Origin: a virus
IMG/VR virus record: IMGVR_UViG_3300045120_000339
Location: 1 to 43,402 of that record
Direction: 5' to 3' (one strand)
DNA length: 43,402 nucleotides
Shown here: positions 6,406-40,798 of the stretch, piece after piece
Layout of the letters: each line of letters begins with the position of its first letter
Numbering within the stretch: the first letter of the stretch is position 1
Translations under genes and position numbers: made by a program
Notes under the pieces: model-generated
Database searches by the model: none
What the model saw: only the letters and a program-made list of their open reading frames with translations
What the model was told of the DNA's origin: nothing

Positions 6406-6863
6406 TGAGCAGTAAGGCACGAGGCTGGCGCAAGTGCGGATGCTACGTTTGGCGCACGCGTAAGCCTTCCGCACCGATCGGCTTGCCGCTCATCGGTCGA
6501 CATTTCGCGTACGTCGGAAAGACTAGCTCGCGTTGGCATCGTGACGCGCAGCACATGGAACGTCAGCCGTGGTCGGACCTCGAGCCGAAAGTCTATGCGT
6601 TGTGGGTTCCGTTTCCGCATTGGAATTGGACGCGCAGCCTGTTCGAACGGTTATATACGTGGCTACTGTTGCCCGTCTATCCGGTGCAATTCAATCAGGC
6701 AAACCCGCGCCGCATTTCGAAGAATACAGCAGAATGGCAGCGTGGAGCGCGTGATGCGAATGGCAAGACAATTCCGGCTCTAGTACGTATGGCCGTGCGC
6801 TGGATATTTTTTTCGGCATTCATCTCCCTGGCCGTGTACGTACTCTTTCGTTGGGGGAAGTAA
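6402..6863 (+). CDS. GIY-YIG-like protein with C-terminal membrane anchor
   Basis: The product is 153 aa. Residues 30-110 carry GIY-YIG features: FAYVGKT in place of the second signature, a following Arg/His pair (SRWHRDAQHM), a Glu in SLFERLYTWLLLPVYPVQ, and an NPRRI motif near the end of the domain. A clear hydrophobic helix (WIFFSAFISLAVYVLFRW) ends the protein, so the nuclease-like domain would be tethered to the membrane. GTG 6402 (GTGA overlap) or ATG 6405 are both usable. It is a plausible partner of the membrane-bound translocase. Catalytic activity is uncertain because the first GIY triplet is not evident. Confidence 0.6.
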   Translation: MMSSKARGWRKCGCYVWRTRKPSAPIGLPLIGRHFAYVGKTSSRWHRDAQHMERQPWSDLEPKVYALWVPFPHWNWTRSLFERLYTWLLLPVYPVQFNQANPRRISKNTAEWQRGARDANGKTIPALVRMAVRWIFFSAFISLAVYVLFRWGK

Positions 6864-7282
6864 TGGGCGCGAGGATGGATCACAACGTTTCCTATTTCGG
6901 GAACATCGAGCGTAGGCCGGGCTCGGGACCGCCTGACCTGACCGGCGGCGCGTGCATGAATCCGGCGGGCATCAAGGCGATGGACGCGTACACAAACTCG
7001 TTTGGCGGCAAGAACGGCGAAGGTGTTCCGCACGCGCGAGTGGTGGCACAACAACTGTGTTTCAAATGCCCTGTGCGCCAGCGGTGCCGTAACGATACAC
7101 TCGAGACAGAAAAGCCCCCGGGCGCGTGGGGTGGAATGTACGGGGCAATGACGCCCAAAGAACGTAGGAGGCTGAAACCAATCTATGACTCGCTCAAAAG
7201 AGGTAACGCATTACACGAACTCGATGCCGTCCAATTCAATCAACCTCCGATCCGGGGAAGAGATCGTGACGGCGCCGGCTAG
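6863..7282 (+). CDS. WhiB-like Fe-S transcription factor
   Basis: The product is 139 aa. The four cluster cysteines are in family order: C31 (GACMNPAG), C66 and C69 (LCFKC) and C75 (PVRQRC), i.e. C-x2-C-x5-C. They are followed by the diagnostic turn GAWGGMYG and a basic stretch (TPKERRRLK) expected to contact DNA. WhiB proteins are restricted to Actinobacteria and their phages, and usually bind RNA polymerase sigma region 4. The start ATG 6863 overlaps the upstream TAA. It probably modulates host or phage transcription from within the transfer-like operon. Confidence 0.9.
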   Translation: MGARMDHNVSYFGNIERRPGSGPPDLTGGACMNPAGIKAMDAYTNSFGGKNGEGVPHARVVAQQLCFKCPVRQRCRNDTLETEKPPGAWGGMYGAMTPKERRRLKPIYDSLKRGNALHELDAVQFNQPPIRGRDRDGAG

Positions 7283-7625
7283 GGAGGCGCACATCCTGCG
7301 AGCGACGCTTGCGGAGATGAAGCGACGCGGTGAGATCGTGAACGCCTACAATTGGACTGAGCGCGGCCAGGAGGTGGGCGTCATCATCGAACGCAATCCG
7401 GCATATCGGCGGCGCGTCTCGCCTAGGGTGTGGAGCGCGGCCGGCGCCGCCCTGATCGGCTTCCTGGCCGTGTTCGTGGCGCACCTACTGTGGGAAGCGC
7501 GTAACTTTCTGGCGGTAGTGGCCGGCGCCGCGTTCGTTCTCATCGTAATCGGCGTCGTGCTTCACATCGTCTTCGGGGGCGGCAATGGCTGTTCCTGCGT
7601 CGTTCACGGAAAGGCGTGCCGATGA
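7185..7625 (+). CDS. Two-TM membrane protein
   Basis: The product is up to 146 aa. Two hydrophobic helices lie near residues 84-103 (AGAALIGFLAVFVAHLLW) and 108-130 (FLAVVAGAAFVLIVIGVVLH). It ends in a Cys-containing tail (CSCVVHGKACR). The N-terminal third is soluble and charged. ATG 7185 has an AGGAGG about 13 nt upstream and overlaps the WhiB gene by 98 bp. GTG 7266, after GGGGAAGAG, is a credible shorter start. Function unknown; it is probably an accessory membrane component of this operon. Confidence 0.65.
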   Translation: MTRSKEVTHYTNSMPSNSINLRSGEEIVTAPAREAHILRATLAEMKRRGEIVNAYNWTERGQEVGVIIERNPAYRRRVSPRVWSAAGAALIGFLAVFVAHLLWEARNFLAVVAGAAFVLIVIGVVLHIVFGGGNGCSCVVHGKACR

Positions 7626-7720
7626 ATTGGCCTCTGGTTTTCCTTCTCTCGATGATAAGCATTTTCGGGATAAGCATTACGGTCATCGCCTTGTGGCCAG
7701 AGAAAAAGCGCGACCGATGA
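7622..7720 (+). CDS. 32-aa single-TM microprotein
   Basis: ATG 7622 overlaps the upstream TGA. The product is one hydrophobic helix (LVFLLSMISIFGISITVIAL) with a short KKRDR cytoplasmic end. The tight overlaps on both sides support translation. Its role may resemble that of small Spd or holin-like proteins; not assignable. Confidence 0.6.
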   Translation: MNWPLVFLLSMISIFGISITVIALWPEKKRDR

Positions 7721-7818
7721 GCGCGCTACGGTACGTCGTGGTAGTCGTGCTCTCAATTCCGGTGGCGGTCTTTATGGCGTGGCTAGGGTATTCGTTCGCT
7801 CGGTGGCGTGAGAAGTAG
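7717..7818 (+). CDS. 33-aa single-TM microprotein
   Basis: ATG 7717 overlaps the TGA of the preceding microprotein (ATGA). The product has one membrane helix (VVVVVLSIPVAVFMAWLGY) and a basic tail (FARWREK). It is the last gene of the rightward arm, ending just before the convergent terminator. Confidence 0.65.
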   Translation: MSALRYVVVVVLSIPVAVFMAWLGYSFARWREK

Positions 7819-7831
7819 ACTGGACAGCAGG

Positions 7832-7860
7832 AAGGGGCGTACCGGTTCGGTACGCCCCTT
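7832..7860. terminator. Bidirectional terminator at the convergence of both arms
   Basis: A perfect 12-bp stem, AAGGGGCGTACC / GGTACGCCCCTT, has a five-base loop. It lies between the last rightward gene (ends 7818) and the last leftward gene (ends 7875). Confidence 0.9.
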
Positions 7861-7874
7861 CTGCGTGCTCGCGG

Positions 7875-8150
7875 TCAGATGTGCGGTTTCGGCTTCGGGA
7901 GGTGCTTCTCCATCCAGACGCGCACCGCGTCGATCGTGCTGTCGCTCAGGTTTGTCGGGCGCGAGCGCTTCACGTAGCCGGCCACCCACGTGCCGGCGGC
8001 CAGGAGAAACGGCGCGAGAGTGGCCTGTAGCAGGCCGGGCAGCGTGCGCACGTAGTCGGTCGCGGTGGTGGCGAGGAATCCGGACGCGGCCAGGGAGAGC
8101 AGGAACGTCGCCCACGTGGACGCCCACACCTTGAGTTCGGTTTTCTTCAT
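7875..8150 (-). CDS. Putative holin
   Basis: The 91-aa product has two membrane helices (about 9-27 and 39-60: TWATFLLSLAASGFLATT and LQATLAPFLLAAGTWVAGYV) and a basic C-terminus with KPKPH. Length, topology and position at the end of the late operon beside other small membrane proteins fit a class II-type holin. The ribosome site (GAAAGG) precedes ATG 8150. The SLAA segment is encoded by one copy of the dispersed 11-mer (8087-8097). Confidence 0.7.
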   Translation of the reverse strand: MKKTELKVWASTWATFLLSLAASGFLATTATDYVRTLPGLLQATLAPFLLAAGTWVAGYVKRSRPTNLSDSTIDAVRVWMEKHLPKPKPHI

Positions 8151-8153
8151 GAT

Positions 8154-8417
8154 TTACCTTTCGGAGACGGGGCAATGCAACCGTTCACGAAGACTTCGCC
8201 AATTGTCGGCGATGCGCTGCCCGGTCTTGGTGGTCGGGGGCGCGTCTTCGTATGTGATGACGTTGCTTTGCACTATGTCGCAGAACTTCATTTCGGTGTT
8301 TCGGTTCAGCCGGAATCCGATTGCGAGTCCGGCGCCGACCAGCGAAAGCGTTACGAGTAGAACGATAAGAGCGGAATAGCCGGTGAGCTGACGTGAGAGA
8401 GCGGCACGCATCGTCAC
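8154..8417 (-). CDS. Small bitopic membrane protein of the lysis cassette
   Basis: The 87-aa product has an N-terminal helix (ALIVLLVTLSLVGAGLAIGF) and a soluble domain with two cysteines (KFCDIV and RLHC) and a PPTTKTGQRIADNWR motif. This motif recurs in small actinophage membrane proteins of unknown function. GTG 8417 overlaps the upstream TGA (GTGA); ATG 8411 is the alternative. It is a possible spanin-like or accessory lysis protein, without direct proof. Confidence 0.65.
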   Translation of the reverse strand: MTMRAALSRQLTGYSALIVLLVTLSLVGAGLAIGFRLNRNTEMKFCDIVQSNVITYEDAPPTTKTGQRIADNWRSLRERLHCPVSER

Positions 8418-8692
8418 GACTTCCCTCCCTTACTGTCCGGGGTGGGAGATGAGGATGGCGCCGACAGTGCCGGCGATTGAGGCGACACCCCACCCGATAC
8501 GGTACCAAAGCGCAGCCCGATTAGCTGAGCGAGACCGGTTCCCGAAATGCAGGCGATTCCCGCCCATATTATCGTTTCGTTCGGCTGGGATGGCGGGGCG
8601 AAGAAGATTCCCGCCTGGCTGAATATCAGCACCCATCCGAGCACGTACGTAATCGTATCTCGAATATACGTACCGATTCCCGGTCGCGTCAC
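8414..8692 (-). CDS. Putative second holin or membrane lysis protein
   Basis: The 92-aa product has two hydrophobic helices (YVLGWVLIFSQAGIFF and TIIWAGIACISGTGLAQLIG) and a Ser/Pro-rich tail. The topology resembles holins annotated in actinobacterial phages. GTG 8692 gives this frame; an ATG four bases earlier leads into another frame. It is coupled to the next gene by a GTGA overlap. Confidence 0.65.
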   Translation of the reverse strand: MTRPGIGTYIRDTITYVLGWVLIFSQAGIFFAPPSQPNETIIWAGIACISGTGLAQLIGLRFGTVSGGVSPQSPALSAPSSSPTPDSKGGKS

Positions 8693-8725
8693 TCATGAGC
8701 CTACTTTCGGTTGGGCGTGGAACGG

Positions 8726-9610
8726 TTAGCCGTTGCCGCCGAGTTGCACAGCCTTGAGAATCGCGGCCTGCTGTTCCTTAATCTCCGCGATCTGCGCCTC
8801 GAGCGCGCCGACGCGGAGATAGGTGTTGTTGAGGAAACCGTACACCGACCATTCCGGGTTGCTCGAGTCCGGCCCGTTCGGCGACGGGAGAACCTTGTCA
8901 GTCATGTTGGTGGCGAACGTGAGCGCGCGGCGCACGTTGACGTCCTCGAGCAACTTCACGAACTGTTCGGGAGTCATGTCGTCATCCTCTTTCTCGAGGG
9001 ACTGACGCCATTCCGCGACAGTCCAACCCATGTCGATCGTGAGTGCCTGCCACATCTTCGGGAACAGGCCGATGATGTTGCGCCGGAACGAATCGTGACG
9101 ATGCCAATTGTGCGTTTCGTCGCCACTGGTCTCGGCTTCGTCGCGGTATTCGTTGTACCCCTCGACCACCCGGTCGCTGTCCACCTGGCCGAGAGTGTAC
9201 GCGTAAACGTCGTCCGGGCGCGGGTCGTTGGGGTCGCGCATCGCATTGATGAGGCGCGTCGTATACCTCGTGATCGTGCGATAGTCGCCGCGCTGCGCGT
9301 CAACGAATGTCCAGTCGTGGCCGGCGCTCTTCGTGCGCCACCATGGGCCGGCGCGGTCGGGCGCGCGACGGATCGAATGATCTGTTTTCGAGTTCCCCTC
9401 GCCGTGGTCGGGAAGGTTCGCGCCCCGGTTGTGATATCCGGGCTTGTCCGCGTACGTGCCGCCGTTCTCGGACAGTTCGGGCTCGAGCGCTTCGCGTTGT
9501 TCGACCAGCCACCACAGCGCATCCGTCATGCGCTCGGGATTGGGGTTGGGTCGCCGCAGTGTGAAGTCGGGCGCGGCGCCGCGCGGGTGCGTGCGAGGAT
9601 TCATGACCAT
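8726..9610 (-). CDS. Putative endolysin-like protein (M15-like, tentative)
   Basis: The 294-aa product has SKTDHSIRRAPDR and GHDWTFVDAQRGDY near residues 70-110 and a His-rich THNWHRHDSFRR near 165-176. These resemble the spaced His/Asp zinc ligands of M15/VanY-like peptidases and related actinophage proteins beside holins. The C-terminal 60 residues are helical (ALEAQIAEIKEQQAAILK), a likely oligomerisation coil. A strong ribosome site (AGGAGGTAAGCGC) precedes ATG 9610. It could instead be a structural protein; the enzyme call is based on pattern and location only. Confidence 0.45.
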   Translation of the reverse strand: MVMNPRTHPRGAAPDFTLRRPNPNPERMTDALWWLVEQREALEPELSENGGTYADKPGYHNRGANLPDHGEGNSKTDHSIRRAPDRAGPWWRTKSAGHDWTFVDAQRGDYRTITRYTTRLINAMRDPNDPRPDDVYAYTLGQVDSDRVVEGYNEYRDEAETSGDETHNWHRHDSFRRNIIGLFPKMWQALTIDMGWTVAEWRQSLEKEDDDMTPEQFVKLLEDVNVRRALTFATNMTDKVLPSPNGPDSSNPEWSVYGFLNNTYLRVGALEAQIAEIKEQQAAILKAVQLGGNG

Positions 9611-9621
9611 GCGCTTACCTC

Positions 9622-10140
9622 CTAGCTAGGACGCTCGAAAACAACCTCGAACGTGGATTGAAAGCCGGACGCAGCGCTCGTGCTGCGCGCCGCCGCCGCG
9701 CCGTTAATCTGCGATGCCATGTGCTCGAGGTAGTCGGTCGTTCCGTTCATCAGCACGACGTACGTTGTTTGCGCGGCGGCGCCGGCAACCGACGCTGCGT
9801 CAGGTCGAACGACCATTTGCGGGGCGGCGCGCGTGCCGTTCTTTGCGATGGCGGCGGCAACCTGAGTAAACGCTGTCGCCGGGGTGTCCATCGATGTATG
9901 CACGGTTACTCTATAGTACCCTGCGATCGTGGGGGTTACGCGCGTCGGGTTGGTCGAAGTATCATGAAAACCGTGCGTGTCGATATCTTCTGATCCGGCA
10001 CCATATGTGATAGCTGTTGTCGTGTTGTTGTTCAGCGATTGCGCCGACTGTGCGATAAGACGCACGATCGGTTTACGAATCGTGTAATCCTCCTGACCAG
10101 TAACGTCGGAGGAGGAAACGGGATCGCCAGCCGCGACCAT
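9622..10140 (-). CDS. Tail-associated beta-sandwich (C1q/TNF-like) protein
   Basis: The 172-aa product, after a short N-terminus, contains the pattern ITYGAGSEDIDTHGFHDTST then RVTPTIAGYYRVTVHTSM. This is shared by many actinophage minor tail or fibre heads with a jelly-roll (C1q-like) fold. Such domains trimerise and bind receptors. It lies between the 940-aa tail protein and the lysis genes, the usual site for fibre or receptor-binding proteins. The Shine-Dalgarno TTTAGGAG precedes ATG 10140. Confidence 0.65.
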   Translation of the reverse strand: MVAAGDPVSSSDVTGQEDYTIRKPIVRLIAQSAQSLNNNTTTAITYGAGSEDIDTHGFHDTSTNPTRVTPTIAGYYRVTVHTSMDTPATAFTQVAAAIAKNGTRAAPQMVVRPDAASVAGAAAQTTYVVLMNGTTDYLEHMASQINGAAAARSTSAASGFQSTFEVVFERPS

Positions 10141-10149
10141 TCATGACTC

Positions 10150-12972
10150 CTAAAGTTGATAGGTGAAGACGCGAAAAAGGCGAATGCGTTTGTTGGCCGT
10201 GTGCGTCTTAACGACATTATTCACTGAGCGCGTGACGTTGCTGAACGTTTGAATTTGGCCAACCGTTACCGGCGCTTGAGTGAACGTCATGCGCTCACCG
10301 TTGATCATGACATCGAACGGATACGATCCCGCATTCGATGTCCAGAGATCGAGCGTCGTTGGGGTGGTCGAGTTTGCATTCGATACTACCGTCGTTGCGG
10401 TAGTGGTCAGCGAGGCGTTCAGCGTTGCGCTCGAGTGATCGTATCGCGTGCGGCCGAGATCTGTTTCGTAGTCGTATCGCCCGGTGTTGTAAATGAGCGC
10501 CGGCGTTGTGTTTCCCTCGATAGTCCACAACCGCTGATACAGGGTCTCGCTGTACCCCTGGAGCAAAAGAAACGCATCCTCGGGTGGCAGCCAAGAAGGC
10601 AACCCGCCGAGTTTCGCGGTGTCGCCGAGATCGAGCGCGGCCAGGGAGAGGAACAGTGAAGAGTCGGCGAGAATCGGCGTTCGATGCATTCCGAGAGAAA
10701 GCGTCGTGTAACGCATCTCTTCGGTAGTCCCGAGGTTCGCAATCCATGACGCGATGTCCGGCAACCGTGAATTGAGATAGGCGTTCAGCGTGACTTCAGT
10801 GCGGTATCGGCCGATGCCGTTCGGTGGAGCTTGCGTGGACATCGAGCCGACGGCTATCTCCCTCTGGCCGCTCGAGGCGTTCGGCTTCGTCACCGTTACG
10901 TCGTTTGTGATTCCCTGATCATCTTCGACTGCGGTCGGAACGTCGGCAAGGTGCTTCGCGGTGTAGCTCAATGTTGCATTTGTGTTGTGTTCCATGTCTT
11001 TGCGCGTGCGATACTGCAACGCGAGGGAATCACGCGACTCACTGAGAATACCGAGATCGGCATCCTGACATTCATATAGCAGGTCCATGAACGTATCAGT
11101 TCCCTGATATCCCATGGTCTCTGTTGACGCCGGGTCGCCGACAATCTCCATGCCGACGCTTTCCTCAGCGGCCAGGCGAGAGAGGCGTGCGCCGGCAGTC
11201 TCGCCAATGAAGCCGTTAGCGCTGCGCGCCATCGCGGTAGAGACGAATCCTAGATCGGCGTTCGCCACGTGAACGTGCGCGATCGACGCATCGATGAAGG
11301 CGGCCGACCCTGCCGCGCTGAAATCGATGTTGGTGATGCGCCCGACCGTACCGGCATAGATGTTCGCCGCCGAAGCCACGAACGATTCTCCCGCGACGTT
11401 ACTCCACTTCGCCTGATAGACGACGTTACCACCGCCCGCTGTCATCAGGAGGTTGAACGCAATCCACCGACCGTTAGGGAAGTAGTCTGCCGGACCGTAG
11501 GTAACGGTCTGAAGGTCGATAACACTTCCGTCCGACGAATAAAAGTTGAAATTGAATCCGCCGGAGTCGAGCGAGATTGTGATGGTGCGCGCGGTTCCGT
11601 TCGTGCTCAACCGCACCAGCGTAGCGAGCGTGGCGGGGAGCGACGGCAACTTAAAATAGAACGTGAAATAACTAACGCCGGTGTAGACGGACTCGAACTT
11701 TGGAGAGGCGATGAAGCGCCCCTGTGCGTCGATGAACGAAGCGGCCGGCTTCGAGCCCGGTAGCGTGCCATCGTCGGCGAACTGTACTTTCGTGACGCTG
11801 CCCGATCGGGCGCCGCTCACGGCGGATGCGGCGACGCTACCCGATTGCGAGCCATCCTCGAGCGGCCAGTATCCAATGAGCCCAGAGCGACGTGTCAACG
11901 TGCGGAAGATGGGCGAGTTGAGGGGCGTCTCCCCCTGGCCGAGTCGGCGGATGGAGCCGGCCGCCGTGACGGATACCCAAACGTCGCGGCCCGTCCTGTC
12001 CCACCTCTGCGGTAGCGACGACAGCTCACCCCAGAAACGAATCCGGTCGGAGGTGACGCGCGCCCGCCCGCCCACCGTCCACGTGGCGCCAGCCGAATCG
12101 GCAAACGAGGTAGTGCCTACGGGCTGCGCGGTGAAATCGGGATTGGCGCGCACGGTGCCGCCGATGCCCTGATAGACACGCGCTTTGTAGATTCGGCCAC
12201 GGAGAAAGTCGGTTGTCCCGAAGATAGTAGACGAATCGTCTCCGTGACCAATACACACGCTAGCGTCACTGGCGAAGATGTTCGTATTGCCGACGACCGT
12301 GGACGTACTCAGCAACGTATAGGTACCGTCGATGCTCGGTGCGGTGTAGAACTCAAGCGTCCTGTTGCCGCCGTTTACCACATCGAGTGTCACCTTGACG
12401 GCGAGTTTATCCGAAGAGATCGGGAGCGGCGCGCTACTGAATTGCGTAATGCGTCCTGCTGTTGTTCCGTCCGTAGACCAACTGAATCCGAGATAGCCAT
12501 CCTGCGTCATGTAAAGCAACCATGAGCGCTGATTCCCGGTCAGTTTGTATTTTGAGAAGAGAATCATTCCCTTGCGCGGTCGGCGCGAGTACGGCTTGAA
12601 TTCAAGACGCACTTCGATGTCGCCGACAATGTCAAGGTTCGCCGAGTCGGGGGTGGACGGGCGATCGGCGACAGATGGAGTAAAGTCGGTGGGCATTCTG
12701 ACGTACGTGTCATCAGTGCCGGCCGTGACGCGCATTTGCGTGTTGCGCGGTAGCTGTCCGAAGTACGTCGAAGAAGGATTGCGATTCGAGAACAGGCCAT
12801 CACGGTTATTGAGCGTGAAGCTGCACGTTTGCGGAGCGACGCGTCCCTGTTCGTTCGCGCGCCCGCGCGTGATCTGCAAACCCGATTCGTAGCGCACGCG
12901 AGATGACACGTCTACCCATGTGCCGTTGATCAGGAACTCGGTCTTCGGGTATCCGTCAGCGGGATAGGCCAT
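10150..12972 (-). CDS. Large minor tail protein with LamG-like domains
   Basis: The 940-aa product's N-terminal 90 residues (VSSRVRYESGLQITRGRANE, then SFTLNNRDGLFSNRN) are the characteristic start of Streptomyces-phage minor tail proteins acting at the distal tail. Two concanavalin/LamG-like regions follow, about 95-290 and 360-590; the second begins with SGLIGYWPLEDGS. The C-terminal third (about 600-940) contains the conserved TDLGRTRYDHSSATLNA-type beta region. It probably forms the tail tip or side fibre contacting host glycans. ATG 12972 follows GGAAAGGCGTAACG. Confidence 0.8.
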   Translation of the reverse strand: MAYPADGYPKTEFLINGTWVDVSSRVRYESGLQITRGRANEQGRVAPQTCSFTLNNRDGLFSNRNPSSTYFGQLPRNTQMRVTAGTDDTYVRMPTDFTPSVADRPSTPDSANLDIVGDIEVRLEFKPYSRRPRKGMILFSKYKLTGNQRSWLLYMTQDGYLGFSWSTDGTTAGRITQFSSAPLPISSDKLAVKVTLDVVNGGNRTLEFYTAPSIDGTYTLLSTSTVVGNTNIFASDASVCIGHGDDSSTIFGTTDFLRGRIYKARVYQGIGGTVRANPDFTAQPVGTTSFADSAGATWTVGGRARVTSDRIRFWGELSSLPQRWDRTGRDVWVSVTAAGSIRRLGQGETPLNSPIFRTLTRRSGLIGYWPLEDGSQSGSVAASAVSGARSGSVTKVQFADDGTLPGSKPAASFIDAQGRFIASPKFESVYTGVSYFTFYFKLPSLPATLATLVRLSTNGTARTITISLDSGGFNFNFYSSDGSVIDLQTVTYGPADYFPNGRWIAFNLLMTAGGGNVVYQAKWSNVAGESFVASAANIYAGTVGRITNIDFSAAGSAAFIDASIAHVHVANADLGFVSTAMARSANGFIGETAGARLSRLAAEESVGMEIVGDPASTETMGYQGTDTFMDLLYECQDADLGILSESRDSLALQYRTRKDMEHNTNATLSYTAKHLADVPTAVEDDQGITNDVTVTKPNASSGQREIAVGSMSTQAPPNGIGRYRTEVTLNAYLNSRLPDIASWIANLGTTEEMRYTTLSLGMHRTPILADSSLFLSLAALDLGDTAKLGGLPSWLPPEDAFLLLQGYSETLYQRLWTIEGNTTPALIYNTGRYDYETDLGRTRYDHSSATLNASLTTTATTVVSNANSTTPTTLDLWTSNAGSYPFDVMINGERMTFTQAPVTVGQIQTFSNVTRSVNNVVKTHTANKRIRLFRVFTYQL

Positions 12973-12974
12973 CG

Positions 12975-14687: not shown

Positions 14688-14889
14688 CTTCACTCTTTCC
14701 TGCGTCGCGTATCGACAACATCATTAGTATGTTCGCATCCTCCGCATAAAGCTGCGACGGTAGGCAATGGAACTGTTCACAGAGACCGAGGATTAGTTCT
14801 GCGCGTGTCAGCTCGAACGGTTTCTCTACAACGTTTCCATTTGAATCATAGGCGCCACCGACGGCGAGCCATTGTTCGATCCGCCCTCT
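14677..14889 (-). CDS. -1 frameshift extension of the tail assembly chaperone (T domain)
   Basis: After the slippery heptamer at 14889-14895 the -1 frame stays open for 70 codons and stops at 14677-14679, overlapping the tape measure start. The extension reads RGRIEQWLAVGG then KPFELTRAELILGLCEQFHC, a helical domain like the T part of lambda gpG-GT pairs. The fused product would be about 178 aa: 108 from the upstream frame plus 70. There is no separate start or ribosome site, which supports frameshift expression. Confidence 0.85.
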   Translation of the reverse strand, partial: RGRIEQWLAVGGAYDSNGNVVEKPFELTRAELILGLCEQFHCLPSQLYAEDANILMMLSIRDAGKSEDGE

Positions 14890-15853: not shown

Positions 15854-15859
15854 CCGCCC

Positions 15860-30776: not shown

Positions 30777-30780
30777 CGGC

Positions 30781-32982: not shown

Positions 32983-33203
32983 AGCGCGAACAACTTCTCT
33001 TCGTCGGCGAGCGTCATCAGCTCACGCACGATCGAGCCGGTCACCGTCAGCCCACCGTTCGGACCGAGCACCCCGAGCGTGGCCAGAGCGCGACGCTCGC
33101 GTCCGTCCGAGCACGCCGCGCCAATCTTGTTCGAGCCGGCCGACATGATGACCGTGCGCTGAATGGGAGTCAGTGCCGCGATGATGGCTTCGTGCTTCGT
33201 CAT
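32979..33203 (-). CDS. Small regulator-like protein from a leaderless transcript
   Basis: The product is 74 aa from ATG 33203, six bases after TAGACT; an in-frame GTG at 33209 touches the -10 box. It reads HEAIIAALTPIQRTVIMSAG then RERRALATLGVLGPNGGLT and ends LADEEKLFAL. The helix-turn-helix-plus-wing pattern suggests a winged-helix DNA-binding protein. It heads the operon containing RusA. Confidence 0.65.
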   Translation of the reverse strand: MTKHEAIIAALTPIQRTVIMSAGSNKIGAACSDGRERRALATLGVLGPNGGLTVTGSIVRELMTLADEEKLFAL

Positions 33204-33209
33204 GCTCAC

Positions 33210-33238
33210 AGTCTAACCCCCATTCATACAGAAGTCAA
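33210..33238 (-). promoter_or_regulatory. Leaderless promoter with shared operator element
   Basis: -35 TTGACT (33233-33238), 17-base spacer beginning TCTGTATGAA, -10 TAGACT (33210-33215), then GTGAGC and ATG 33203. Confidence 0.8.
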
Positions 33239-33243
33239 CTACC

Positions 33244-33756
33244 TCACGACGCGAGGATGAGTGCCGGCACGAACACGCCGAAGAAGAGGTGCCACGACTG
33301 ATCGAGCGCCCATGCCCCCGTCCCGAGCGTCGGCTGGTCAAGAGTCACTCTCCGTGACCCCCACCCGGCGCCGTCACTGGCAAAGGTGATCATGGAACGG
33401 GGCTTACCGAGAGTGAGGAAGTCGCGAGTAGACGGCAGTCGCCGCGCCAGCCAAAACATGAGCCCGTGCTCCCGCCGGTCGGCCGCGTAGTGCGTCACCC
33501 CGGACACGGCCAGAGCGACGACCGACCGCCGCCACCCGCCGCCCGGCAGATCGAGCACCAGCCACACCAGCGCTAGACACACGCCCTGGGTCAGCACGTA
33601 CGTACTGACGTGCGCCGCGCACGTCAGCCGACCGGTCCAGCCGGCGTCCCCCTTGTGCCGCGTCTCAGCCTCTGTCTGCACCCAGTAATCGCCGACGTGG
33701 TGCCCAACGTAGAGCGCGAGCCCCGTGGCCGCGAACAGGGCCACTGAGCCGCTCAC
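33244..33756 (-). CDS. DUF3307-like membrane protein
   Basis: The product is 170 aa from GTG 33756 (GTGA overlap). It has three to four hydrophobic segments and the characteristic HHVGDYWVQTEAETRHKGDA after the first helix, then CAAHVSTYVLTQGVCLAL and SGVTHYAADR. The G-D-[FY]-x2-Q and repeated His pattern fits DUF3307-type proteins found in phages. Molecular role unknown; membrane location likely. Confidence 0.7.
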   Translation of the reverse strand: MSGSVALFAATGLALYVGHHVGDYWVQTEAETRHKGDAGWTGRLTCAAHVSTYVLTQGVCLALVWLVLDLPGGGWRRSVVALAVSGVTHYAADRREHGLMFWLARRLPSTRDFLTLGKPRSMITFASDGAGWGSRRVTLDQPTLGTGAWALDQSWHLFFGVFVPALILAS

Positions 33757-34283
33757 GGCCGCGTCTCCACGCCCGGCCCCCACTGGGCTCGCGGCAAAGC
33801 GCGCCCGGCCGTCTCCGGCGCGCTCAGGGCCGCTCGCGCGACTTCCACGGCGTCGGCCAGGGAGCGCAGCGCACTGTCCAGCCCCTCGCGCTCTCGCGCG
33901 GCGGCCCGGGAGGGGGTGGGCCGCGACAGCACGCGCCGAATTCCGGACATGCAGTCGGAGCACGTGGCCGACCCGGCCCGGCCGGTGTACGGACCGTCCT
34001 CGGACCCGCACTCGGCGGCATCGCGGCCCCGGGTGCGGAAGTGGACCGGCGGCGGAGCATCGGCCAGGGAGAGGGGCAGCTCAATCTCCGGAGGGTCCAC
34101 GATCTCGGCCAGGGAGAGGGGCAGCTCAATCTCCGGAGGGTCCACGATCTCGAACTTCCGGTACTCGATGAACTCGAACGCCTTGAGCAACCGGTCCGAC
34201 GCCGTGAACGTCCACGCGAACGGCTCGCCTTTCACCCGATGCACGTTCACTCGGTTGCTCAACACTTCGACCCAAACTTGCAT
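33753..34283 (-). CDS. Hypothetical protein with tandem 15-residue duplication
   Basis: The product is 176 aa from ATG 34283 (GGGAGGCATA upstream). An N-terminal beta-rich domain (QVWVEVLSNRVNVHRV) is followed by EIVDPPEIELPLSLA repeated twice in exact tandem (45-bp DNA duplication). A C-rich patch (ATCSDCMSGIRRVLS) and helical end (LRSLADAVEVARAAL) follow. Not assigned. It carries three copies of the 11-mer. Confidence 0.7.
   Translation of the reverse strand: MQVWVEVLSNRVNVHRVKGEPFAWTFTASDRLLKAFEFIEYRKFEIVDPPEIELPLSLAEIVDPPEIELPLSLADAPPPVHFRTRGRDAAECGSEDGPYTGRAGSATCSDCMSGIRRVLSRPTPSRAAAREREGLDSALRSLADAVEVARAALSAPETAGRALPRAQWGPGVETRP
34060..34152. repeat. Exact 45-bp tandem duplication
   Basis: Copies at 34060-34104 and 34105-34149, plus three further matching bases. 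Each unit starts with TCGGCCAGGGAG, the dispersed motif, so motif and duplication boundaries coincide. It keeps the reading frame (15 codons). Confidence 0.95.
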
Positions 34284-34301
34284 TATGCCTCCCTCGTAGT
34301 T

Positions 34302-34333
34302 ACCTAACCCTACCACACTCATACAGAACTCAA
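34302..34333 (-). promoter_or_regulatory. Promoter with shared operator element
   Basis: -35 TTGAGT (34328-34333), then TCTGTATGAGTGTGG and TAGGGT/TTAGGT as possible -10 boxes (spacing atypical). It drives the gene at 34283. Confidence 0.6.
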
Positions 34334-34378
34334 CTAGCTCTGTTTTTTCTCGATCCCGCCTCCCGCCACCATCCGCCC

Positions 34379-34599
34379 TATCCGCCACCCCTGTCCCCTC
34401 CTAGGGTCGGGGACAGGGGGGCGGATACCCTTGGGAACCCTTGGCGGATACCCCGGCGGATACCTGGCGGATAGTGGCGGATAGCAGCTCAGGGGGGTGG
34501 CGGATACTTGGCGGATATAGTCGCGTATACACCCTGGCGGATACCCCGGCGGATACCCCTAGTCACGAGACTATATCCGCCACCGATGTCCGGCGGATA
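34379..34599. other. Iteron array, probable replication origin
   Basis: GGCGGATA occurs in direct orientation at 34420, 34443, 34455, 34466, 34476, 34499, 34510, 34536, 34548 and 34592, and inverted at 34379 and 34574. Spacing is often 10-12 bp, near one helical turn, as for plasmid iterons bound by an initiator. The array lies at the 3' end of the prim-pol/helicase gene; the last two copies are inside its coding sequence. A GC hairpin (34388-34419) flanks it. No other explanation for the repeats is visible. Confidence 0.8.
34388..34419. terminator. Hairpin flanking the iteron array
   Basis: CCCCTGTCCCC / GGGGACAGGGG, a nearly perfect 11-bp stem. It could terminate the leftward replication transcript or form part of the origin. 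Confidence 0.6.
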
Positions 34600-36830
34600 T
34601 CACCTCGCGTAGTCTGTCCGGGTTTGAGGCTTTCCAAAGCGTCAGCATCGATCATCCATTTCTCACCTCTCACGTTCACCGCGAGGGGTTCCTCCCTGGC
34701 CGATCGAAGCGAGAGCACCTTGTCCCACGCGCCATCGAACGATTTCCGAGCGATCGGGCCGAACGTTTCGATGAGGTTGTGTCGCGCTTCGGCTTTCGTG
34801 AGCCCGGTCGTCCCGCCGATGTAGAGCAAAACCTTGATGAGATGCACTTGGTGACCGCTGTAGCCGGTCTCCCACGGTTCCGCCTGCTGGAGGAGCACCG
34901 CGAGCCGGCGATCCGCCTCCCTGGCCGAGAGCGCCCGTTCGTCCACCGGGCCGGTGGCCGCCGCCGCGATCACGAACGGGTCGGACGCCAGTGCGAGCGA
35001 GGTGATCGGCTCGCCGTCCTCATCGGCGCCGACCACGACCGAGACGAACGCCAACTCGAGCGCCGGCCGCTCATCAAGATCCTTTTGTTTCTCCACCAGC
35101 AGGCGCCCGCGCAGCCCCTCACCCTTCTCCACCTTGAGTTCCGTGTCCTGCGCGCCATCGATCGCCGAGCTCCCTCGCGCGTCGCCGCCCTTGCGCCCGG
35201 TGTGGTGAATCGGCATGACGCACGCCCCCGTCGCCCGCTTGACCGCGTCCACCGCCTCGATGAAGTGGCCCATGTCGGTCGCGTCGTTCTCGTCCAGCCC
35301 GACGCTGAGCCGGGCTTGCGTGTCGCCGACCACCAGCACGGGCGCCAGCCGCCGGCACGCCTCCACCAGCACAGCCCACGCGGCCCGGTCGCCGGCCTGC
35401 ACGGGGCGCGGGAGCACGTGCACGCCGGCCGGGAGCGGCCCATGCACCACTTCCCACGCCTTGATGCGCTTCCCCAGCCCACCGGCGCCCTCTGCGGCCA
35501 CGATCACCACCGGTCCCTGCGTCACCTTGAGCCCCTGCCACGGCCGGCCGGCGGCGACGTGACAGGCCATGTCCAGGGCGACGAAGCTCTTGCGGCACCC
35601 GGGTGCCCCGATGAGCCACGCCGCGCTGTCCAGGTTGAGCAGCCCCTTGATGAGCGGGCGCGGCGCCGGCCGTTCCTTCACCTGATCGAGCGTCAGCATC
35701 TCGGCGAGCAGCGCCTCCACTGCATCGGCCGGGGGCGCGGCTGCAGTAGATACTTGCGGCGTCAACAACCCCTCGAGCTCGGTGCTCTCCCTGGCCGACG
35801 CCTTCCACCCGTCCGCCGGCGGCCGGCGCCCGTCCAGCACGGGCCGAAACTTCTCCACGGTCCATGCGCTCGCCGGGTGGTGCTCGTCGTACGGGGTCGT
35901 GCTCAGGGCGTCGCGGAGCACCTTCATGGCGCCGTCCACCGTCAGGAAGGCCGGCACGAAGTGCGCCAGCTGCACGGCGGCAGCGTTGCAGCGTTCCTCG
36001 ATCTCGCCGATGCGGGCCGCCCGCAGCCGCTCGAGCACCGGCGCGGTGTAGGCCCGGGCCTCCTCCGGCGTGAACACGCGCTCGCCGGCGTCCGCCCGGC
36101 CCGGCCCGGCGAAGAGCTGCGAGGTGGCGGCCGACGCCGTGACGAACGGGCTATCGCCGGGCGCCGGCGGCGCGCTGCGCCGAGCTCGGTGGGCGGCGAT
36201 CCGGGTGCGCACGCCCTCGATCGAGTCGTCGGAGCCGGCGAAGTCGGCCAGGAGGGCGAGGTCAGGTGCCTCGAGCCACCGGTACGGCGCCGGCTCGCCG
36301 GTCACCTTGGACGGCTTCACGGTGGGCGCCAGGTAGGCGAAGCCTCGCCCGTGCGTGCCATGGGCGTCCGGCGCCGCCGCGCCCGACTGCAGGTCCAAGC
36401 CCGGCATGAAGCCGTTCGTCTCGCGCTCCCCGGTGGGGCTGATGACGAAGTGCTCGCCGCCGGACGGGGTGGTCTGGCGGCCGAACGTGCGCGGCCAGTC
36501 GCCGGCCCGGCGCAGCTCCCTGGCCGATGCGTCGCCGCCGTGCCGGGGGTCCACATCGAGCACGTCGGCGAGGTGGCCGCCGACCATCCCGAGGGCGTGG
36601 CCAGGCTCCCACCGCTCGAGCCAGACCGGCGCCGGCACGGTTTTCTGCCACTCGCGCGGGAGGTGGAAGGGGGTCTTGCCGGCGCCGTGCCCGGCGATGT
36701 GGCACGTCCCGCCGTGCGCCGCCGGGCACGGCGGGGCCGAGAAGACCGGGATGCCGTGCGAGATCAACTCGCGGGCGATCTCGAGGGATTCTTTGATTTC
36801 TTGGGATGAAAGGTGTATAAGTTCGCCCAT
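34563..36830 (-). CDS. Bifunctional primase-polymerase / RepA-like helicase
   Basis: The product is 755 aa. The N-terminal prim-pol domain (about 20-210) has the metal-binding DVLDVDPRHGGDAS and later GGEHFVI. A linker and helical bundle follow (about 240-360). The C-terminal RecA-like RepA/DnaB ATPase has Walker A GAPGCRKSFVALD (Arg where Gly is usual, a substitution type tolerated in this family), VVIVAAEGAGGLGKR and MPIHHTGRKGGDARGSS. Such fusions prime and unwind DNA at plasmid and phage origins. ATG 36830 follows GGAAGG. Four 11-mer copies encode SARE here. Confidence 0.88.
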   Translation of the reverse strand: MGELIHLSSQEIKESLEIARELISHGIPVFSAPPCPAAHGGTCHIAGHGAGKTPFHLPREWQKTVPAPVWLERWEPGHALGMVGGHLADVLDVDPRHGGDASARELRRAGDWPRTFGRQTTPSGGEHFVISPTGERETNGFMPGLDLQSGAAAPDAHGTHGRGFAYLAPTVKPSKVTGEPAPYRWLEAPDLALLADFAGSDDSIEGVRTRIAAHRARRSAPPAPGDSPFVTASAATSQLFAGPGRADAGERVFTPEEARAYTAPVLERLRAARIGEIEERCNAAAVQLAHFVPAFLTVDGAMKVLRDALSTTPYDEHHPASAWTVEKFRPVLDGRRPPADGWKASARESTELEGLLTPQVSTAAAPPADAVEALLAEMLTLDQVKERPAPRPLIKGLLNLDSAAWLIGAPGCRKSFVALDMACHVAAGRPWQGLKVTQGPVVIVAAEGAGGLGKRIKAWEVVHGPLPAGVHVLPRPVQAGDRAAWAVLVEACRRLAPVLVVGDTQARLSVGLDENDATDMGHFIEAVDAVKRATGACVMPIHHTGRKGGDARGSSAIDGAQDTELKVEKGEGLRGRLLVEKQKDLDERPALELAFVSVVVGADEDGEPITSLALASDPFVIAAAATGPVDERALSAREADRRLAVLLQQAEPWETGYSGHQVHLIKVLLYIGGTTGLTKAEARHNLIETFGPIARKSFDGAWDKVLSLRSAREEPLAVNVRGEKWMIDADALESLKPGQTTRGDIRRTSVADIVS

Positions 36831-36867
36831 TGTGGTACCTTCCGAATGAAACCAGCGCAGAGAAACT

Positions 36868-36897
36868 AAAGGCCGGGGGTCGACTCCCCCGGCCTTT
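36868..36897. terminator. Bidirectional terminator
   Basis: AAAGGCCGGGGG / CCCCCGGCCTTT with a six-base loop separates the RHH regulator from the replication gene. Confidence 0.9.
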
Positions 36898-36932
36898 CTG
36901 CGTATGTGGATATGCCTCGTGGACTGCTGATA

Positions 36933-37271
36933 CTAGTACTTCAGCGGCCCCCGGCGGCCGATCGGCGCGGGCTCGCCGGCCGCTTCCGCCGCGAGCGCCT
37001 CGAAGCCCTCCAGCGAGGGCAGCGATCGGCGGCCCTTCACCGTTTCGCGCACCCACAGCCGCCAGTCGGTGGCGCCTTCCTTCTCGGCCAGGCGGTAGAG
37101 CCGCTGCAACCGCTCCTGCTGCGCCGCCTCGAGCACGCGTAGCGGCCCGGCCGTGTCGTCCACCGCGCGCCGCACCACCTCGGCGCGACTGACGCCCATC
37201 ACGATGCGTAGCGCATCGACTCGATCGAGCTGCGTCCGGTCGAGAATCCCCATGAATTGGATCTTGGACAT
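36933..37271 (-). CDS. Ribbon-helix-helix regulator
   Basis: The 112-aa product begins IQFMGILDRTQLDRVDALRI, then MGVSRAEVVRRAVDD. A beta strand plus two helices is the MetJ/Arc RHH plan at residues 4-40. The remainder is helical (QERLQRLYRLAEKEGATDW). The start has GGAGAGTGACCA upstream. It is the first gene of the leftward arm, beside the divergent control region, so it is a good candidate for the protein that binds the shared TTGACA-ACTGTATGAG operators. Confidence 0.7.
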   Translation of the reverse strand: MSKIQFMGILDRTQLDRVDALRIVMGVSRAEVVRRAVDDTAGPLRVLEAAQQERLQRLYRLAEKEGATDWRLWVRETVKGRRSLPSLEGFEALAAEAAGEPAPIGRRGPLKY

Positions 37272-37331
37272 TGGTCACTCTCCGTAGTTAGAAGCCGGTT
37301 ATCGCCGGCCTCTTCCTGGCCGCGCATCCTC

Positions 37332-37361
37332 ACCATACAGTGTCACTCATACAGTTGTCAC
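37332..37361 (-). promoter_or_regulatory. Leftward promoter with shared operator element
   Basis: -35 GTGACA (37356-37361), spacer beginning ACTGTATGAG, -10-like TATGGT (37332-37337, 18-bp spacing). It drives the RHH gene. Confidence 0.65.
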
Positions 37362-37386
37362 CTACTCTCTATGTGTGTTACGGTAG

Positions 37387-37402
37387 TTGACATCTGGATG
37401 AG
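37387..37402 (+). promoter_or_regulatory. Rightward copy of the shared operator element
   Basis: TTGACA-TCTGGATGAG, 25 bp from the leftward copy in opposite orientation, just ahead of the gene at 37423. No convincing -10 is seen. It probably completes a divergent operator pair. Confidence 0.55.
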
Positions 37403-37422
37403 CGAACTTGATGGAGGCATGC

Positions 37423-38244
37423 ATGTACTTCGAAGCTGGCGTGACGGTTACCCCACACATGGCGCGCGAGTTCCTGTCGCGCAACGTGGAGAACAACCGG
37501 CCGCCGAAGAAGTCCAAGATCCCGATGTACGCACGGGACATGGCGTCGGGGAATTGGCGTTCGGGTACGGGTGAAACGATCAAGTTCAACACGCGGCGCG
37601 AGTTGATCGACGGACAGAACCGCATGCACGCGGTCATCCTGGCGAACGTGCCGGTCAAGTTCGATCTCGCACATGATGTGTCGGTCGAGGTCATGCCCGT
37701 TCTCGACTCGGGTGCGGCCAGAACGGGCGCCGACGCACTCGCCATCTCCGGCTCGCGCGATCGCACGATGCTGTCCAGCATCGTGCGGTGGGCGATCATG
37801 TGGGACGCGAACCTTCCGACCGGCGCCGGCCCGCTCAAGCCGACCAATCTGGAGATCGTGGAGCGCGCGAACGCGGAACTCGGTCTCTTCGACGCGTGCT
37901 CGCAGCGAGGCAAGGATGCGCAGCGCATGGGGCTCGGTAACGGGTCGGTGGCGGGAATGGCATTCTTCGTGTTCTCGCGTCAGTCAACGAGCGAGGGTAA
38001 CGAGCACAAAGAGTTCTTCGATGCCTTCCTGTCCGGCGCGAACCTCGAGCCCGGCTCGCCGATTCTGACGCTGCGCAATCGCATGGTTAAGGCGAAGTTC
38101 GATCGTCTCACGCGAGCGGAAGGGCTCGCTCTGTACGTGCGTGGCTGGAATGCGTGGCTTCGCCGTGAGACGCCGGCTCAGCTCATCATCGTCAAGGGTC
38201 AGCTCAGCAATGAGAACTTCCCGAAAGTTGAGGTAGTGAGGTAA
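37423..38244 (+). CDS. Conserved actinophage protein (ParB/DGQNR-like)
   Basis: The product is 273 aa from ATG 37423 (GGAGG five bases upstream). It carries YARDMASGNWRSGTGETIKF, ELIDGQNRMHAVILANVPV and MPVLDSGAARTGADALAIS. This is the DGQNR-type motif set of a protein common in actinophages, distantly like ParB N-terminal/sulfiredoxin domains. Function is not established. It heads the rightward replication arm. Confidence 0.75.
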   Translation: MYFEAGVTVTPHMAREFLSRNVENNRPPKKSKIPMYARDMASGNWRSGTGETIKFNTRRELIDGQNRMHAVILANVPVKFDLAHDVSVEVMPVLDSGAARTGADALAISGSRDRTMLSSIVRWAIMWDANLPTGAGPLKPTNLEIVERANAELGLFDACSQRGKDAQRMGLGNGSVAGMAFFVFSRQSTSEGNEHKEFFDAFLSGANLEPGSPILTLRNRMVKAKFDRLTRAEGLALYVRGWNAWLRRETPAQLIIVKGQLSNENFPKVEVVR

Positions 38245-38381
38245 TGAGGCGTGGACTGTGCGGGGAGCGTGCCGATCACTCCCCGCACGTGCATCACTCG
38301 AAGAGTCTCGGCACGTACTGGTGCGCGGCCGACCAGGCGCAGCGCGAGCCGTATCGATCCGAAAGGAAGCGGGAGAAGTGA
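38244..38381 (+). CDS. 45-aa Cys/His microprotein
   Basis: ATG 38244 overlaps the upstream TAA (TAATG). The product RRGLCGERADHSPHVHHSKS then GTYWCAADQ fits the small C...HxPHxH...YWC family of probable zinc-binding proteins in Streptomyces phages. Its end overlaps the next GTG. Confidence 0.65.
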   Translation: MRRGLCGERADHSPHVHHSKSLGTYWCAADQAQREPYRSERKREK

Positions 38382-38785
38382 CCCCGGAAGAGCAAGCCGT
38401 CATCGATGCGGCAATCAGGTGGAGCAACGCTGATCCGCGCTGGTGCCGGCCTGTAGAGAACGCTCTTGATGAAGCTGTGGCAGCGCTCGAGCGTTCGCGC
38501 CAGCCGAAGACGGAACTGCGGTGGTATCTGAGGACGTGGGCGGACGTGCGCGCCGGCGACGTGGTGCGCTTCACGACGGCACGCGATCGGCCCGCCATCG
38601 TGACCGCGATCTCTCGCGTCAACCACGTCACGCCGCGCCCCTGGTCTTCGATGAGCGTCACCGTGGACACGGCGCCGGCCCACAAACTCTCATTCAACGC
38701 GGACGCGGAGATCGAGATCGAGATGGACGTGCGCACGTACGACGCCATGATCGTGCTTGGTGGTTGGACCGAACGTCTTGCGTAG
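38378..38785 (+). CDS. Hypothetical protein
   Basis: The product is 135 aa from GTG 38378 (GTGA overlap). Helical N-terminus (EEQAVIDAAIRWSNADP), then a beta domain with VRAGDVVRFTTARDRPAIVT and MSVTVDTAPAHKLSFNADAE. The small barrel resembles SH3-like domains. Unassigned; a promoter follows its stop directly. Confidence 0.65.
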   Translation: MTPEEQAVIDAAIRWSNADPRWCRPVENALDEAVAALERSRQPKTELRWYLRTWADVRAGDVVRFTTARDRPAIVTAISRVNHVTPRPWSSMSVTVDTAPAHKLSFNADAEIEIEMDVRTYDAMIVLGGWTERLA

Positions 38786-38813
38786 TTGACTTCTCGACTA
38801 GGGTCGGTATAAT
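38786..38813 (+). promoter_or_regulatory. Leaderless promoter, consensus -10
   Basis: -35 TTGACT (38786-38791), 16-base spacer, -10 TATAAT (38808-38813), ATG at 38820 after six bases. The spacer lacks the CTGTATGAG operator, so it may escape the shared control. Confidence 0.75.
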
Positions 38814-38819
38814 AGAGCT

Positions 38820-38978
38820 ATGAATCCGAAGTGCGGAACGTGTAGACGAGTACGCGTGTGCTCAGATTCAATACGATGGAATGTTGCTTACTCTGTTCGC
38901 CGTGCTATGACTTTTTCTGAATGGATGAACTATCTTCGCTCGCATCGCCCGACAAACACTCCGGAGGGTATGAGATGA
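38820..38978 (+). CDS. 52-aa Cys-rich small protein from a leaderless transcript
   Basis: The ATG lies six bases after TATAAT. The product NPKCGTCRRVRVCSDSIRW then MTFSEWMNYLRSH has three cysteines near the start. TGA 38976-38978 overlaps the helicase ATG (ATGA), so it may serve as the leader cistron for coupled helicase translation. Confidence 0.65.
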   Translation: MNPKCGTCRRVRVCSDSIRWNVAYSVRRAMTFSEWMNYLRSHRPTNTPEGMR

Positions 38979-40798
38979 ACCCGCTTGACATCCTCCGTGG
39001 TTATCAGCGCGAGGCGCTCGATGCGCTCTGGAAGTCGTGGGACGCCGGCGGTACGCGGGTCTCTATCGTCATGGCCACCGGTCTCGGGAAGACGAAGGTC
39101 TTCACTCGTGCGGTGTGGAAGTGGTTGCAGGAGAAGCGCGAGGATTCTTCGTTCAAGGCGAACACCGGTAAGCGCGTGCTCGTCATCGCGCACACAGATG
39201 AGCTGATCGAGCAAGCGGCCAGGGAGATGTGTCTCGCGTGCCCCGGCTATTCGGTCGGCATCGTCAAGGCGAACCTGAACGAAACGCACGCGCGCATCAT
39301 CATCTCAAGCCGGCAGACACTCGCGTCCGAGCGTCGTCGCGCGCAGATTCGCAACGTTGGTCTCATCGTCGTTGACGAATGTCATCATGCTCTACGTACA
39401 AATACGTACGGGAAGATCCTCGAGCACTTCGGCGCGTTCTGTATGGAATATTCCGATGGAACGTGCACCGAGCATCATGGAAACGTACATGCGAACCCGG
39501 GTGCACAAGTCAAGGTGCTCGGGGTTACGGCGACGCTGGCGCGCGGCGATAAGGGCAAGCTGTCTACCGTGTGGGAGACGGTTGCGTTCAAGCGCGACAT
39601 TCTGTTCGGCATCCGTAACGGCTTCCTGCTGGACGTGCGCGGCGAGCGCGTTATCGTCGCCGACTTCGATCTCGGAAAGGTGAAGCAATCCGGTGGCGAC
39701 TATCAAGAGAGTGCGCTCGCGGATGAGCTTGAGCGTACGTTCGCGCCGCAGAAAATCGCCGAGAAGTACGCCAGTGTGGCAAGGGTCGTGGGCGGGAATG
39801 CGTTACGTCAAGGGATTGCGTTCTGGCCGTTGGTGGACACTGCCTATCATGGTGCGGAAGCTTTTGAGGCAGCGGGCATTCCCTCTGCGGTTATCCACGG
39901 TGGCCTACCGAAGGAAGAACGGAAGCTGATTCTCAAGCGCTTCCGCGCCGGTGAGATCACTGTCGTGCATAACTGCATGGTGTTGACCGAGGGGTTCGAT
40001 GCGCCGTGGGCTGATGTGGTGGTGATTGCCCGCCCGACGCGCAGCGCCCCGCTGTATCAGCAAATGGTCGGCCGCGTGTTGCGCCCCGACCTGAACGTGC
40101 CGGCGGCGGCCAGGGAGAAAGCGCTCATCCTGGACGTGACGGGAGCCGGCGCTACCAATGATCTTCGCTCCCTGATCGATCTCGCCCCGGAGCGTCCGCT
40201 CAAGCGCGATGAAGACATGGATGACATGTCGTTGCTCGAGCTGGACGACGCGCTCTTCGAGTTCGAGGAGATCAACAGTGGCGGGAGCGTCGAGCTTCCC
40301 GGGCCAGCCGCGTACGACGGCGAGACAGCAACGATCGCATTCGATCCGCTTCACCGCGAATCGTTGTGGGCGCGCACGCCCGAGGGCATCCCGTACATGA
40401 CGGCCGGGTCGGCCGGCTTCGTGTTCCTGTTCGAGCGCGAGCCCGACGCCTATGACATCGTGTTCTGCACGAAGGTCGATTACCGCACCCCGCCGCAGCA
40501 GGCGAAGCGTCTCGAAGTGGTCGGCGGTGAGGCCGGCCTGACGCTCGAGGATGCGTTGATGTACGGCGAAGAGTACGCGTTCGAGGCGGGCGGGCATGGT
40601 GCGAAGACGCTGGCGAAGCGCACCGCGTCGTGGCGCAAGGATGAGCCGAGCGACGGACTCAAGCGCAAGGGGCAAGTGCTGCGCGTCTGGAAAGACGGCA
40701 TGACGAAAGGCGAACTCGCCGAAGCCATCAGCGCGAAGATTGCGGCGAACTCGATCGATCCGCTTGTGCGCACGGTGCGCGCCAGCATGAAAGGATGA
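38975..40798 (+). CDS. Superfamily 2 (DEAD/ResIII-type) helicase
   Basis: The product is 607 aa from ATG 38975. Motif I MATGLGKT (33-40), motif II DECHH (134-138), motif III VTATLARGD, and motifs IV-VI including AVIHGGLPKEERK and QQMVGRVLRPD. The C-terminal 180 residues are a phage-specific extension. It probably unwinds or anneals DNA in replication or recombination with the nearby nucleases. Two 11-mer copies encode AARE. Confidence 0.88.
   Translation: MNPLDILRGYQREALDALWKSWDAGGTRVSIVMATGLGKTKVFTRAVWKWLQEKREDSSFKANTGKRVLVIAHTDELIEQAAREMCLACPGYSVGIVKANLNETHARIIISSRQTLASERRRAQIRNVGLIVVDECHHALRTNTYGKILEHFGAFCMEYSDGTCTEHHGNVHANPGAQVKVLGVTATLARGDKGKLSTVWETVAFKRDILFGIRNGFLLDVRGERVIVADFDLGKVKQSGGDYQESALADELERTFAPQKIAEKYASVARVVGGNALRQGIAFWPLVDTAYHGAEAFEAAGIPSAVIHGGLPKEERKLILKRFRAGEITVVHNCMVLTEGFDAPWADVVVIARPTRSAPLYQQMVGRVLRPDLNVPAAAREKALILDVTGAGATNDLRSLIDLAPERPLKRDEDMDDMSLLELDDALFEFEEINSGGSVELPGPAAYDGETATIAFDPLHRESLWARTPEGIPYMTAGSAGFVFLFEREPDAYDIVFCTKVDYRTPPQQAKRLEVVGGEAGLTLEDALMYGEEYAFEAGGHGAKTLAKRTASWRKDEPSDGLKRKGQVLRVWKDGMTKGELAEAISAKIAANSIDPLVRTVRASMKG

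Follow-up and report, generated by a model that had tools for sequence, protein, structure and literature searches.

Window and excess of the word

The analyzed stretch of DNA, in the following termed the window, comprises the whole IMG/VR virus record IMGVR_UViG_3300045120_000339 (43,402 nucleotides), through which the 11-mer CGGCCAGGGAG is dispersed in many exact copies. Since its ends overlap by 135 bp, the window is probably the complete circular assembly of a soil siphophage. It encodes an HK97-type capsid, portal, terminase, tape-measure-like and tail proteins, a primase-polymerase (Prim-Pol)/helicase, a superfamily 2 (SF2) helicase and an exonuclease, as well as WhiB-like, RHH and HTH proteins. 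Gene calls and null models were built within this analysis. The first 25 kb showed no near match in 50,697 phage records.

Between positions 6824 and 40117, CGGCCAGGGAG was found 23 times, 15 times on the plus and 8 times on the minus strand (Table 1). Dinucleotide shuffles gave an expectation of 0.06, and 23 copies were reached in none of 100; the count lies about 80-fold above an order-4 Markov model. As two of the copies originate from a 45-bp exact tandem duplication (34060-34149), about 22 of the 23 are independent. A further 20 sites of GGCCAGGRG were determined (0.93 expected), and the core CGGCCAGG, with 59 copies compared to 3.8 by an order-3 Markov model, is the top 8-mer outlier of the genome. 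This agrees with an earlier sequence-only reading, which had noted an 11-mer far above chance on both strands together with many variants GGCCAGG[AG]G. The same reading had named beforehand a codon-preserving shuffle as the test that could refute it, and it withstood this test: after synonymous codon shuffling over our own gene calls (in the following the codon null, in which codon pairs are not preserved), the called genes comprised 0.17 ± 0.40 11-mers (maximum 2) compared to 19 observed, and 6.9 copies of CGGCCAGG (maximum 14) compared to 51. Since the codon shuffles fail to reproduce the counts, the proteins do not explain the word. Literature searches yielded no description of it, and the 20-mer CGGCCAGGGAGAGCGCTCTC gave no match in viral or genome collections.

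Table 1. Positions of the 11-mer, its core and the genes considered as readers or markers
Feature	Position	Strand	Remark
11-mer	6824..6834	-	SLA phase if open reading frame (ORF) 6402-6863 is coding
11-mer	8087..8097	+	LSLA, antisense in 7875-8150
11-mer	10638..10648	+	LSLA in 940-amino-acid tail protein; core also in L009
11-mer	13121..13131	-	GGQG in tape-measure-like protein
11-mer	14135..14145	+	TSLA
11-mer	15394..15404	+	TSLA
11-mer	18920..18930	+	outside called genes; faces 18953
11-mer	18953..18963	-	outside called genes; adjoins GAGAGCGCTCTC
11-mer	21237..21247	+	TSLA; core also in L030
11-mer	26230..26240	+	LSLA
11-mer	27054..27064	-	SARE
11-mer	27216..27226	+	SSLA
11-mer	31114..31124	+	LSLA
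11-mer	31594..31604	+	outside called genes
11-mer	33854..33864	+	RSLA
11-mer	34061..34071	+	LSLA; unit 1 of 45-bp tandem repeat
11-mer	34106..34116	+	LSLA; unit 2 of 45-bp tandem repeat
11-mer	34692..34702	-	SARE in Prim-Pol/helicase gene
11-mer	34917..34927	-	SARE in Prim-Pol/helicase gene
11-mer	35787..35797	-	SARE in Prim-Pol/helicase gene
11-mer	36516..36526	-	SARE in Prim-Pol/helicase gene
11-mer	39216..39226	+	AARE in RadD-like helicase gene
11-mer	40107..40117	+	AARE in RadD-like helicase gene
CGGCCAGG core, 59 copies	range 2262..42678	31 on +, 28 on -
FtsK/TraB-like (pRL2-11-like) ATPase	4160..6109	+	reader proposed in the sequence-only reading; unsupported
Terminase large subunit	27613..29034	-	marker gene; its clade carries the word
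RusA-like Holliday-junction resolvase, weak match	32446..32982	-	common to motif phages
Prim-Pol N-terminus + AAA_25 helicase	34563..36830	-	candidate reader or part of the reader's module
SF2 helicase, RadD as nearest solved structure	38921..40798	+	candidate module
PD-(D/E)XK exonuclease	41619..42698	+	candidate module

Distribution and dialects in related phages

Relatives were gathered by searching viral contigs for the capsid, portal and terminase; L231, L010 and L030 are short records. In the tree of the large terminase subunit (TerL), 13 phages form a clade with a support of 100/100, and 12 of them showed a 2.4-4 fold enrichment of CGGCCAG over the codon null. The observed and expected numbers in genes were 61/19.8 for the window, 59/17.5 for G768, 74/25.5 for G769, 90/28.3 for G770, 53/18.2 for G771, 73/21.6 for G772, 40/14.8 for G773, 31/8.9 for L009, 18/4.5 for L235, 12/4.0 for L236, 13/3.2 for L239 and 25/10.3 for L240. 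The 13th member, L231, is the closest kin (80%) and comprises five 11-mers in a 6.9-kb contig with few called genes. Among 19 control relatives, most remained within 3 standard deviations of the codon null, the highest value being 22/11.2 for L247, which like L248 lies outside the TerL clade and shows a weak excess. Scans of viral contigs with the primase-helicase and a tail protein found no relative.

While the core is constant, the tails following it vary by lineage (GGGAG, GA, A, CA, C). In the genes of the window, the base directly after the core is a 7.1-fold G and never C, while G and A stand at this place in G768, A in G769, C and T in G770, and C in G772; an R at +8 and a G at +10 are common. 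The 11-mer is hence one dialect of a trait common to the phage clade, namely the dialect of CGGCCAG(nRnG) in the window phage and its nearest kin. A second word, ATCGGCCAC, was found 17 times in G770 (L265, L266), and GTGGCCGAT 14 times in 6 kb of L236; it is possibly another dialect.

Only some of the window sites coincide with sites in relatives (2 of 20 in L009, 1 of 6 in L010, 3 of 5 in L030). Since most fail to coincide with those of L009 and L010, the places turn over while the density is kept. The close pair L009/G768, whose aligned part is 85% identical in DNA, retains 16 of 20 CGGCCAG sites intact compared to 150 of 387 composition-matched words (39%, P=3e-4); for coding sites with the same peptide, the values are 10 of 13 and 198 of 489 (P=0.01). 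Site conservation, for which the sequence-only reading had suggested a comparison with relatives, is found in the close pair, whereas distant relatives mostly differ in place.

Codon phase, orientation and spacing

Eleven of the 11-mers in called genes are read in the SLA phase (a twelfth, at 6824, if ORF 6402-6863 is real), seven as ARE and one as GQG, and three lie outside called genes. Eight of the 41 AGG codons are located inside the word. The statement that the copies sit almost always in one codon phase thus has to be changed to two phases, SLA and ARE, on opposite strands, although a preference as such exists. Selection at the DNA level, filtered by tolerable peptides, would leave such a preference. 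In all eight long records examined, CGGCCAG was over-represented in nearly every codon-possible phase. The excess was about 2-4 fold where the word is read as Leu-Ala or Gly-Gln and was highest, at roughly 6 to 15 fold, for GCC-AGG; outside called genes the word occurred at 1.0-3.2 per kb. Together with the failure of the codon shuffles and the turnover at kept density, the excess in nearly all phases and the non-genic copies uphold the earlier claim that the DNA and not the protein is selected.

No strand polarity of the word was observed along any genome tested, neither overall nor by segment. With respect to transcription, 26 sites are sense and 35 antisense. The core sites are not clustered, and they are spaced slightly more evenly than expected at random (combined P=0.013). 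The motif phages carry 59-97 word sites per genome, which lie on average 412-736 bp apart when both strands are counted, corresponding to about 0.8-1.5 kb per strand. Altogether, we are highly confident that CGGCCAG(nRnG) represents a dispersed word, selected as DNA and spread throughout this clade of actinobacterial siphophages; it apparently serves recognition.

Candidate readers and a possible Chi-like function

The Prim-Pol/helicase, the RadD-like helicase and the PD-(D/E)XK exonuclease are all encoded in the six long motif phages, i.e. the window and G768-G772. Of 23 records without the motif, none comprises a full-length Prim-Pol (one showed a C-terminal match). The helicase and the exonuclease have close homologues in G768-G772, and in the motif-less records remote ones only, in 4 and 2 of the 23, respectively. 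The capsid of G768 is only 38% identical to that of the window, yet module and word are present, while most relatives with 51-57% capsid identity lack the word. Judging from these comparisons, the word follows the replication/packaging half of the genome and not the capsid. The reader, which we infer from this co-travelling, has close to an even chance of being encoded by the phage in the replication/recombination module, which would comprise the Prim-Pol/helicase, the RadD-like helicase, the PD-(D/E)XK exonuclease and the RusA-like resolvase. The HTH protein at 30884-31420, possibly the small terminase, was rejected as a specific reader, since remote homologues occur in motif-less phages too. 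In-frame stops were found in the G769 homologue of Prim-Pol (TAG) and in the G770 homologue of the HTH protein (TGA), which may reflect error or decay.

As the simplest mechanism, a Chi-like action of the word is tentatively proposed. An enzyme at work on phage DNA that is broken or being replicated would arrive from either side, would meet a correctly oriented word within about 1 kb, and would there switch from degrading or unwinding to recombination. Chi is short and asymmetric, lies dispersed and mostly inside genes, and has species-specific variants. The phage word shares these properties, its variants differing by lineage, and the phage genomes are enriched for it, as expected for a genome on which protection or recombination acts. 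In contrast, Chi of RecBCD/AddAB is a trait of host chromosomes and usually strand-biased, whereas the word is a trait of a phage clade without strand bias. Random orientation, the co-occurrence with the module and the slightly even spacing would be best explained by a word that acts like Chi or otherwise in double-strand processing, and the Chi-like site already listed in the sequence-only reading is the best surviving candidate. A constant core with lineage dialects is also known from the DNA uptake sequences (DUS) of Neisseriaceae (PMC3630211). These mark the chromosomes of competent bacteria, whereas the phage word has no link to competence and the sampled chromosomes of the host group are not comparably enriched.

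Several points weigh against a Chi-like word read by this module. The RadD-like helicase belongs to SF2, while the motors of RecBCD/AddAB belong to SF1, and no enzyme of the RecBCD/AddAB type was found in the window. Isolates with related modules (NBR1, Upyo, EmiRose) showed only a 1.4-2.1 fold CGGCCAG enrichment. Module and word are confined to one clade, so that they may have become associated only once in evolution, and the sampled genomes may not include the true host, in which case the reader may be a host factor.

With these points considered, an orientation-independent word of the clade's own, whose dialects evolve and which a phage recombination or replication protein reads as a Chi-like self-signal, is a possible explanation with perhaps one chance in three. 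If true, such a phage-specific signal could also limit recombination between phage lineages. Dispersed words with dialects are already known for bacterial chromosomes (Chi, DUS, and KOPS, the FtsK-orienting polar sequences). If tied to the module, a strong and unpolar word that forms dialects and is confined to a phage clade would suggest a counterpart run by phages, with which they mark their own DNA for repair or exchange. The association yields concrete candidate reader proteins.

Alternative explanations

Another explanation would be that a host factor reads the word, either as host Chi for RecBCD/AddAB/AdnAB or as a site of a defence or organising protein, with the phages matching their host and the dialects following the host species. 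The tetranucleotide pattern of the window correlates best with contigs of Thermoleophilia (the top ten all belong to this class, 0.63-0.73), a hint at a host in this class. A few Thermoleophilia genomes also show a mild excess of CGGCCAGnRnG, up to 4-fold over the reversed pattern and up to about 440 per Mb. This value is, however, the maximum among 249 whole genomes, none of which reaches the 725-1150 per Mb of the phages, and pooled Thermoleophilia samples showed about 120. Most of 40 chromosome stretches were near the codon null, with one clearly above 3 standard deviations (L289, 45/27.4). The 11-mer itself does not exceed about 22 per Mb in any of 397 Actinomycetota genomes and is rarer still in 399 Thermoleophilia genomes, compared to 530 per Mb in the window. 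For the time being, the word is thus not a trait of the sampled chromosomes, which may not include the true host, and a host reader is considered unlikely. The capsid search of the 397 genomes of the phylum found a single relative (51%), and the terminase search of the 399 Thermoleophilia genomes likewise (48%, without the word). Among the matches listed in a paired-motif scan of genome contigs, unrelated taxa were scattered and no host was singled out.

It is rather improbable that the word marks priming sites, at which Prim-Pol would start the lagging-strand primers needed every 1-2 kb per strand. The occurrence of Prim-Pol/helicase throughout the six long motif phages and the spacing per strand would be in line with this, and the Prim-Pol of phage NrS-1 recognizes an 8-nt site (PMC8718748). 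However, this enzyme uses the short GTGG with higher efficiency than the 8-nt site, and dispersed clade-wide selection is not among the features described in the passages on it. Moreover, replication from a fixed origin is expected to leave segments of one strand polarity, and none were seen.

Still less probable is a genome-wide site of a phage repressor or silencer, comparable to the stoperators of cluster A mycobacteriophages, which are asymmetric, dispersed and numerous in each genome and vary in motif among relatives (PMC6550527). The window does encode WhiB-like, RHH and HTH proteins. Stoperators, however, follow the direction of transcription, lie in promoters and short intergenic spaces and number about 20-30 per genome, whereas the word is randomly oriented, mostly intragenic and more frequent.

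We give slightly less credit to the possibility that the word results from biases in codon choice, codon pairs or mutation, or from selection against other words. In some phages, other words also exceed the codon null 2-4.5 fold: CTCGAGC, a second enriched word across the window, occurs 63 times in genes compared to 18.8, and TGCCAGC 43 times compared to 9.5 in EmiRose (L325), a cultured Corynebacterium phage with a related exonuclease/helicase module and several dispersed words in several phases. Against such a by-product stand the excess across phases, which peaks in the rare GCC-AGG, the non-genic copies, the distance from the Markov model and the conservation at 85% identity.

The sequence-only reading had further suggested a recognition sequence of the FtsK/TraB-like motor, of the type of KOPS or the TraB recognition sequences. 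Likeness exists in a dispersed motif and an ATPase in the same genome, but the word lacks polarity and, among the motif phages, the motor gene is confined to the window and G771. Neither G768, a complete circular genome (127-bp end overlap), nor G769 and G770, records of 40-41 kb, encode it, although all three bear the word, which makes this proposal very improbable. Two of the other suggestions do not fit either: a packaging or partition signal is expected to be single or clustered, which does not fit the number of sites, and a decayed mobile palindrome does not agree with the missing conserved flanks, the GAGAGCGCTCTC palindrome being a separate, mostly intergenic element.

Further observations

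At 3291-6109, a DUF2637-like protein (match below the cut-off) and the pRL2-11-like FtsK/TraB ATPase, which is of the Streptomyces plasmid type, are encoded within a siphophage; G771 has relatives of both. Palindromes centred on GAGCGCTC, mostly GAGAGCGCTCTC, were found at 18946, 23740, 26035, 29060, 29503, 30496, 30766 and 31124, six of the eight outside called genes, and seven more in the 6.9 kb of L231; they are a putative operator-like element separate from the 11-mer. The repeats TCATACAGTTGTCAACTA and TACCCATAGTCTACAC, located at 29452-30571 and scattered elsewhere, resemble phage promoters (TTGACA on the reverse strand), and 20 repeats of GTCAACTA were counted in L233.

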